Below are positions 6,546-9,381 of a stretch of 64,000 nucleotides of DNA, in pieces. The translations under genes and the position numbers were made by a program. A model generated the notes under the pieces. That model made no database searches and was not told the origin of the DNA. It was given only the letters and a program-made list of their open reading frames with translations. Position 1 is the first letter of the stretch, and every line of letters begins with the position of its first letter. Source of the stretch: an uncultured Paracoccaceae bacterium (lineage in GTDB: Bacteria > Pseudomonadota > Alphaproteobacteria > Rhodobacterales > Rhodobacteraceae); NCBI GenBank assembly GCA_947503765.1, contig CANNFA010000004.1, forward strand, positions 62,001-126,000, in the 5' to 3' direction.

Positions 6546-7511
6546 ATGGTCTACAATATCAGTGAGGCCTCCGGTACGTTTACCGGTGGCGGGCAAGGCG
6601 GCGTCGCCAACTGGACGTTCGACGCGACGCTTGCCGACCTGACGATCACCGGCGATTTCGATTACGACGGCAACCTTGACGGGCTTGGCGATGGCGAGGC
6701 GGCGGACGGCTATACGTTCAGCGCGCTGAGCACCACCGATTACGGCACGCTGACCTACAATACGACGACGGGCGAATTCACCTTTGTCATCGACAAGGCC
6801 GCCGTGATCGCGTCGGGGTCGGACCAGACGGTGACCTTTGTCGTCACCGGCTTTGACGGCAGCGACAGCGACGACGACCTTGTCACGATCAACATCGCGA
6901 TCTGCGTCCAGCGCGGCACCCTGATCGAGACCGGGCGCGGCCCGGTGGCGGTGGAAAGCCTGACGGCTGGCGATCTTGTCCTGACACGGGATTCCGGGCT
7001 GCAACCGGTGCGCTGGATCGGCTCGCGCCGGATGAACGCGGCCCAGCTTGACCGCGCACCCGAGATGCGGCCGATCCGCATCCGCGCCGGCGCGCTTGGC
7101 CCGGAATGCCCGGACCGCGACCTTCTGGTGTCGCCGCAGCACCGCGTCCTGCTGACCGGCTGGAAGGCCGAACTGTATTTCGGCGAGCCCGAAATCCTTG
7201 TGCCGGCCAAGAGCCTGGTGAACGATTCCAGCATCGTGATCGCCCGCGATACCGTGGATGTGGAGTATTTCCATGTCCTGTTCGACCGGCACGAGATCAT
7301 GATGACCAACGGCGCGCCGACCGAAAGCTTCTTTCCCGGCGCCTACGTGATGGATGCGCTGGACCGCGCGGTGATGGACGAGCTGTGCGCGATCTTCCCC
7401 GAGCTTGCCGCCGATCCCGAAGGCTTCGGCCCCGCCGCGCGGATGTCAGTCAAGCATTCGGAGGCCGCCGTGCTGCGCGCGGCGGCGCCGGACGCGGCCC
7501 GTCTGCAATGA
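6546..7511 (+). CDS. Hint (hedgehog/intein) autoprocessing-domain protein with short acidic passenger
   Basis: 321 residues. Residues 1-119 form a Gly/Thr/Asp-rich beta passenger resembling VCBS or cadherin-like repeats (DFDYDGNLDGLGDG, later GFDGSDSDDDL) without a Sec signal peptide, a pattern seen in type I-secreted proteins. At residue 120 a Cys begins a bacterial Hint domain: CVQRGTLIETGRGPVAVESL, then GDLVLTRD, the DLLVSPQHRVLL block (His199) and YFHVLFDRHEIM, ending near ESFFPGAYV. The Cys takes the place of the nucleophile used for N-S acyl shift in Hint domains. There is no C-terminal His-Asn and no extein, so it is not an intein. The passenger contains a single lysine (Lys84). The stop overlaps the ATG of the acyltransferase gene, so the two are probably co-translated. 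Autocleavage and export are inferred. Confidence 0.85.
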   Translation: MVYNISEASGTFTGGGQGGVANWTFDATLADLTITGDFDYDGNLDGLGDGEAADGYTFSALSTTDYGTLTYNTTTGEFTFVIDKAAVIASGSDQTVTFVVTGFDGSDSDDDLVTINIAICVQRGTLIETGRGPVAVESLTAGDLVLTRDSGLQPVRWIGSRRMNAAQLDRAPEMRPIRIRAGALGPECPDRDLLVSPQHRVLLTGWKAELYFGEPEILVPAKSLVNDSSIVIARDTVDVEYFHVLFDRHEIMMTNGAPTESFFPGAYVMDALDRAVMDELCAIFPELAADPEGFGPAARMSVKHSEAAVLRAAAPDAARLQ

Positions 7512-8029
7512 GCGGTCTGACCGACACCTCCGGCAAGCCGCTGCCGGCGATCGAGGCGCCGTCCGCCGCGAAATTGCGGACTTACGGCGACTTTCTGTTC
7601 CTCGCGTTCCGCAGCGACTGGCACCGGCAGATGAGCGTGGCGAACCTGCGTTCCGCCTTCGAAGCACCGATCGAGCTGGACCAGTACCGCGTGTTCCGGT
7701 TCGACGACGTGCCGCGCGCGGTCATCACCTGGGCCTGGCTGAATTCCGACGCCGAACGGCGCTATGTCCGGGGCGGTCTGCTGGAGCCGGACGACTGGCG
7801 GGCGGGCGACCGGCTGTGGCTGCTGGACATCATCGCGCCCTATCGGGGGCTGACCGCCAGCATCAGCCGCTGGATCATGGTGCCGGGGCAGTTGCCGAGC
7901 CACCGTTTCCGGTTCCGCCGGGTCGGCGAGGATCACGCGACGCGGCGCATCGTGTCGGTCGATCTGGACAATACCGACCGCAAGGCACGCATCCTGTCGG
8001 AAAAGGCGTTCCTGGCCGAAGGCGAATAG
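7508..8029 (+). CDS. HlyC/CyaC-family toxin-activating lysine acyltransferase-like protein
   Basis: 173 residues, close to HlyC (about 170). The family transfers a fatty acyl chain from acyl-ACP to internal lysines of RTX protoxins in the cytoplasm. Visible matches: FLAFRSDWHRQM with His39 at the catalytic His position, LDQYRVFRFDDVPRAVITWA, the segment LLEPDDWRAGDRLWLLDII with Asp107 at the catalytic Asp, and a C-terminal basic strand region (HRFRFRRVGEDHATRRIV). The ATG sits within the stop of the Hint gene (ATGA), and no RTX gene is present in the window. Its partner is therefore most simply the Hint protein, but a substrate elsewhere in the genome is possible. Confidence 0.85.
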   Translation: MSGLTDTSGKPLPAIEAPSAAKLRTYGDFLFLAFRSDWHRQMSVANLRSAFEAPIELDQYRVFRFDDVPRAVITWAWLNSDAERRYVRGGLLEPDDWRAGDRLWLLDIIAPYRGLTASISRWIMVPGQLPSHRFRFRRVGEDHATRRIVSVDLDNTDRKARILSEKAFLAEGE

Positions 8030-8958: not shown

Positions 8959-9381
8959 TCACAATCGCTTTGCGGCGGCGCCAAGGCCAAGCCCGCACAA
9001 CACGCATTGCCGAATCTTTCGTAGCGTCGCCTCGGGCAAGGGAGTGGTGCGATACTCGCGTTTGCCGCTCCCTGTTTTCCCAATTCTGATAAGATCGGTT
9101 CGGTGAAAGCCAACGGTGTTGATCATGTCGCCCTTGACCCAACACCGATTGGACCAACCGGCAGGCAAAACGAACGGAATCTCGATCTCGCAATGATATG
9201 GCATGGGCATCTTCGGCGCTGTCGTGCTTAGCGCCACGACAGTCAAGAGCCCCCTCCGAGCCTGAATCGCGGGAGAAATCACAACCGCCAGCCGGCGCTT
9301 GACCATCTCCGGTTCCTTGAACCCCGGTTCATAGCTTACGGTGACCAGGGCGCCTTGCTTCGGGTGATATCGAAGTGCCAC
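8959..9381 (-). CDS. PemK/MazF-family toxin-like protein without adjacent antitoxin
   Basis: 140 residues starting at GTG. The N-terminus (MALRYHPKQGALVTVSYEPG, then EPEMVKRRLAVVIS) fits the MazF/PemK SH3-like barrel, whose members cleave mRNA as type II toxins; the next conserved block LLTVVALSTTAPK and a later KGDMINTVGFHRTDLI also fit. The start lies 7 bases behind the stop of the D-2-hydroxyacid dehydrogenase gene on the same strand, so it may share that transcript. No small antitoxin gene is found on either side. It may be an orphan, or a domesticated RNase. Confidence 0.8.
   Translation of the reverse strand: MALRYHPKQGALVTVSYEPGFKEPEMVKRRLAVVISPAIQARRGLLTVVALSTTAPKMPMPYHCEIEIPFVLPAGWSNRCWVKGDMINTVGFHRTDLIRIGKTGSGKREYRTTPLPEATLRKIRQCVLCGLGLGAAAKRL

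Follow-up and report, generated by a model that had tools for sequence, protein, structure and literature searches.

The question raised by this locus is which protein is modified when an HlyC-family acyltransferase is encoded together with a Hint protein. HlyC enzymes are known for the activation of RTX toxins and, in one case, for a contact-dependent inhibition (CDI) adhesin. In the window, which is the whole 64,000-nucleotide stretch of DNA from an uncultured Paracoccaceae bacterium, a gene for a Hint_2 (PF13403) precursor (6546-7511, + strand) runs into a gene for an HlyC-family (TAAT, PF02794) acyltransferase (7508-8029, + strand). The two genes make up a unit of their own, and the pairing itself is solid. 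The pair, its recurrence, the coupling of the genes and the active-site residues are read directly from the sequences.

The Hint-HlyC pair and its recurrence

The preliminary description of this DNA had reported a Cys-initiated Hint domain with Cys120 and His199, an ATGA overlap between the Hint open reading frame (ORF) and a 173-residue HlyC ORF, and His39 and Asp107 in the HlyC-like protein, and all of these features were confirmed. PF13403 matched residues 119-265 of the 321-residue precursor (starting MVYNISEASG) with E=1.4e-59, which places the Hint_2 domain at 6900-7340 (+). The nucleophile Cys120 (6903-6905) and His199 (7140-7142), the latter closing the block-B motif S196-P-Q-H199 (SxxH), were invariant in an alignment of 20 proteins of class A, the pairs with the Hint-HlyC order of the window. 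The N-terminal passenger (residues 1-119; 6546-6902, +) is an acidic beta domain with weak VCBS/cadherin-like similarity (TIGR01965, E=0.002), and its AlphaFold2 (AF2) model was all-beta with uneven confidence. Fold comparison of the Hint protein model gave inteins and a bacterial intein-like domain, together with weaker matches to cadherin-type domains and to an RTX adhesin; one class B relative also matched Cadherin_4. Behind the Hint domain lies a C-terminal tail (7341-7508, +) that is helical in the AF2 model and has a conserved Glu306 in the class A alignment, and uncoupled Hint proteins bear similar tails. The last four bases of the Hint ORF are the first four of the HlyC ORF (7508-7511, +).

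The HlyC protein of 173 residues scored 76 bits against PF02794 (E=3.2e-21; cut-off 25 bits) and aligned with ApxC (PDB 4whn) at a sequence E value of 1.1e-11. Its AF2 model had a mean pLDDT of 95 and a TM score of 0.70 to 4whn. His39 (7622-7624) and Asp107 (7826-7828) were both kept in 20/20 class A HlyCs; among class B HlyCs the catalytic His was kept in 19/22 and the Asp in 22/22. Pfam reported only HlyC for this protein, and the N-myristoyltransferase (NMT) sequence family was not matched. The closest relatives, at about 65% identity, were from Sulfitobacter and Pseudosulfitobacter.

The pairing had been suspected to recur in Rhodobacterales, and a genome survey was run. HlyC was found in 85 of 397 Rhodobacteraceae genomes, at 101 places, and the flanking regions of these places were scanned. 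A same-strand Hint_2 gene directly adjoined HlyC at about 54 of the 101 places, in both gene orders, a frequency that is neither rare nor random; an upstream Hint gene in L097 with an internal ATG (MGLSPG), the locus L089 and a pseudogene in L155 were left out of the coupled count. At a density of about 12 Hint_2 genes per 4 Mb, chance would place one on the same strand and within 1 kb in about 0.3% of cases, which is too seldom to explain the adjacency. The pairs comprised class A (n=20), class B with the HlyC-Hint order (n=22) and a third class, C (n=12), often found within arrays. Class A junctions had a 4-base overlap in 17/20 cases and a 1-base overlap in 2/20, and HlyC-Hint junctions mostly ranged from -1 to +5 bases. 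Apart from HlyC and Hint, no gene was shared by every pair locus, and neither a dedicated exporter nor a third partner was conserved. In a maximum-likelihood HlyC tree, almost all paired HlyCs fell into one group of 59 rows, which included only 5 unpaired members, one of which is truncated where its contig ends. At HlyC loci from other families of the same taxonomic class, where only short flanks were covered, an adjacent Hint_2 gene was found in 0/29. The tight coupling and the tie of one HlyC clade to Hint genes favor the dedicated substrate proposed in the preliminary description, and the Hint protein is very probably the substrate of its own HlyC.

Many marine Rhodobacteraceae thus carry such a two-gene unit, and the named genera with class A pairs included Sulfitobacter, Pseudosulfitobacter, Roseovarius, Ruegeria, Nioella, Rhodovulum, Tropicibacter and Yoonia. 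Roughly half of the class A loci, L072 and L121 among them, had flanking housekeeping genes in common, one of them argG-like, so the pair was probably inherited vertically there. Hint_2 is very numerous in Rhodobacteraceae, where it also terminates many RTX-repeat proteins, and most Hint_2 proteins had no HlyC coupling; G004, a genome from the genus of the window source, had 33 Hint_2 matches. Tandem arrays in L113, L097, L124 and L095 contained as many as seven Hint_2 genes, whose passengers differ, along with as many as three HlyC genes, and resemble a cassette in which varied passengers are placed on one Hint type. Outside Rhodobacteraceae, Herbaspirillum sp. alder98 (L279:4920-6183) has an HlyC gene followed about 20 bases on by a 247-residue protein with a different Hint domain of only weak similarity (hhalign E=0.005). 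In G608 (L285:1321-3425), an ORF beside HlyC has a stretch similar to the final part of a Hint domain of the pretoxin type. HlyC neighbors or fusions with a metallopeptidase-like motif (LAHEAAHAI or LAHEIAHAA) occur at L068:5835-6974 and L133:5846-7405, and neither RTX nor Hint was found near these two HlyC loci. In the window itself, a 140-residue ORF at 8959-9381 on the - strand may, by eye, resemble a PemK/MazF-type toxin protein.

The acceptor on the Hint protein

The preliminary description had pointed to internal lysines, the usual acceptors in the HlyC family, and the paired proteins do not bear this out. The coupled passengers were nearly free of lysine, with 0.17 lysines per 95 residues before the Hint Cys and none within this stretch in 47 of 54 proteins. 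A target lysine should be conserved, and the alignments of the paired classes contained no common lysine column, so an internal lysine acceptor is unsupported. Acylation of a lysine in the passenger, the Hint domain or the tail is thus unlikely, although known HlyC relatives act on lysines (PMC8339906, PMC8510554). The only lysine well kept in class A was K222 in the Hint domain (18/20 proteins); however, K222 was not kept in class B and is also present in uncoupled Hint_2 copies, as a general feature of Hint_2. The single passenger lysine of the window copy, K84, was not conserved in the class A alignment, and tail lysines varied among coupled Hint proteins. Acylation of a passenger Ser, Thr or Cys was also considered and was rejected, as neither the class A nor the class B alignment contained such a conserved column.

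The position that stood out was residue 2. It was Gly in 43 of the 54 coupled Hint proteins, Val in 8, Thr in 2 and Ser in 1, and its entropy was 0.95 bit, compared with 2.5-3.4 bits at positions 3-12. Named class A relatives (n=42), which overlap the survey set and are not independent of it, had Gly (36), Ala (4) or Ser (2). Each of these five residues permits removal of the start methionine, and the exposed amine can be acylated. Pro2 and Lys2 were common in uncoupled Hints but absent from coupled ones, and among 38 uncoupled Hints in genomes that lack HlyC, only 5 had Gly2, all five within one family. In eight mixed arrays, coupled Hints started with Met-Gly in 10/10 cases and their uncoupled neighbors in 0/17 (Fisher 1e-7, a value that disregards relatedness; for one of the ten coupled genes, in L113, an alternative start is possible); in the 17 neighbors, position 2 was taken by Pro, Ala, Val, Lys, Ser or Glu. 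Based on this pattern, the N-terminal amine of the passenger may be the acceptor, a reading that we consider evenly balanced.

Inheritance of Gly2 from one passenger family, or an effect of translation initiation independent of the enzyme, would also give this bias. This explanation draws on the relatedness of coupled passengers within each class and on limited independence in the Hint tree. It is improbable, because Gly2 recurs in three classes with otherwise differing N-terminal residues and in both gene orders, and ends at the coupling boundary inside single arrays. In addition, the Hint gene precedes HlyC in class A, where Gly2 therefore cannot be imposed by an overlapping HlyC stop codon.

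Several observations weigh against acylation of the N-terminal amine. To our knowledge, characterized HlyC-family enzymes all modify internal lysines. The low lysine content of the passengers is accompanied by low arginine, so the scarcity of lysine may only reflect an acidic protein. With Val2 in the window protein and Ala2 in its closest relatives, from Sulfitobacter and Pseudosulfitobacter, Gly is no strict requirement. Kinship among the coupled passengers of a class, which is partial, could by itself account for Gly2; a test of independent pairs, confined to branches with support in the Hint tree, yielded only 3 pairs, 2.5 of them agreeing on average (p about 0.25). No export route for the passenger was found. 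In the window copy, codon 2 (6549-6551, +) encodes Val, the candidate for acylation once Met has been removed, and the Gly2 rule is better illustrated by other copies. Six of the eight Val2 cases belong to one HlyC sub-clade, which fits co-evolution of enzyme and substrate and also plain descent.

A proposed order of events and its comparison with known systems

In the proposed N-terminal acylation, the start methionine would be removed from the Hint precursor to expose a small N-terminal residue, usually Gly and Val in the window copy. HlyC, through His39 and Asp107, would then transfer a fatty acyl group to the N-terminal amine of the passenger, with acyl-acyl carrier protein (acyl-ACP) as the probable donor, as in HlyC relatives. 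Cys120 would form a thioester at the junction of passenger and Hint domain, and cleavage there would free the passenger. The C-terminal His-Asn of splicing inteins was not found in the alignment, where the window Hint_2 domain ends in TESFFPG, so from family knowledge this Hint should cleave at its N-terminal side without splicing, and cleavage is somewhat more likely than not. The product would be the small acidic beta domain, lipidated at its N terminus and separated from the Hint part; its attachment to the surface or its release is a guess. The best explanation as a whole, with an HlyC dedicated to the co-encoded Hint protein, acylation of the N-terminal amine and cleavage by Hint, stands at about the midpoint between doubt and acceptance.

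As stated in the preliminary description, the window contains no RTX gene: we found no RTX repeat array, with at most one chance motif per frame. The source genome has 12 Hint_2 copies, a single HlyC, which is the window copy, and several RTX ORFs distant from the pair locus. The HlyC substrate could therefore be encoded elsewhere, for example as one of these RTX proteins, with the Hint gene a partner in something else. This is improbable as well, since one HlyC clade accompanies several classes of Hint gene in many genera and in both gene orders, and many of the remaining Rhodobacteraceae HlyCs adjoin RTX genes and lie mostly in other clades. Less probable still is a protein ligase, in which HlyC would take the passenger from the Hint thioester instead of acyl-ACP and join it to an amine; the Hint thioester would be chemically akin to the acyl thioester used by HlyC enzymes and all 54 coupled proteins retain the Cys that opens the Hint domain, but a ligase leaves Gly2 without a role and the HlyC active site is unchanged.

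The window enzyme shares family, fold and the His-Asp dyad with HlyC, CyaC and ApxC. It differs from them in belonging to a separate clade and in having a Hint partner without RTX repeats or a conserved target lysine, and no cognate RTX gene is adjacent. One precedent is CdiC of class IV CDI, an HlyC homologue that lipidates Lys1467 of the large non-RTX adhesin CdiA (PMC8510554). CdiC is likewise adapted to a dedicated non-RTX partner encoded alongside; however, the partner here has about 320 residues, bears a Hint domain and has a lysine-poor passenger.

The proposed acceptor, the primary amine of an N-terminal Gly after Met removal, would be that of eukaryotic NMT, which can acylate N-terminal Gly and nearby lysine amines (PMC8339906). 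NMT belongs to a different family with a different presumed donor, and residue 2 is not strictly Gly in the proteins studied here. The parallel with Hedgehog drawn in the preliminary description stood in part. The layout agrees, with an N-terminal passenger followed by a Hint domain that has the Cys and T/SxxH and lacks splicing at the C-terminal side, and a lipid at the passenger N terminus may be a further likeness. For the second lipid of Hedgehog, a sterol or any other at the C-terminal end, we saw no sign; no signal peptide was seen either, and the passenger and acyltransferase of Hedgehog are unrelated to those here. Bacterial intein-like and Hint_2 domains share the fold and the Cys nucleophile but mostly lack HlyC coupling.

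Meaning for HlyC and Hint_2 proteins

No description of a Hint-HlyC pairing, in Rhodobacterales or for PF13403, and none of Hint_2 cleavage for these proteins was found in the open-access literature; the claim of novelty rests on this literature and on general knowledge. A widespread HlyC branch tied to self-cleaving Hint proteins would broaden the role of HlyC. Hint_2, very common in Rhodobacteraceae and with no function that we found described, would gain a first testable pathway. Acylation of the N terminus should shift the mass of a single residue by a defined amount, which makes the hypothesis easy to test. Tentatively, and with slightly less assurance than for the acceptor itself, we propose a bacterial N-terminal fatty-acylation that evolved from toxin-activating enzymes, in which HlyC lipidates Gly or another small residue and Hint frees the passenger. 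Prokaryotes are stated to be without NMT (PMC5868815). Should the N-terminal amine prove to be the acceptor, this would be a bacterial counterpart to N-myristoylation, which is usually regarded as eukaryotic.
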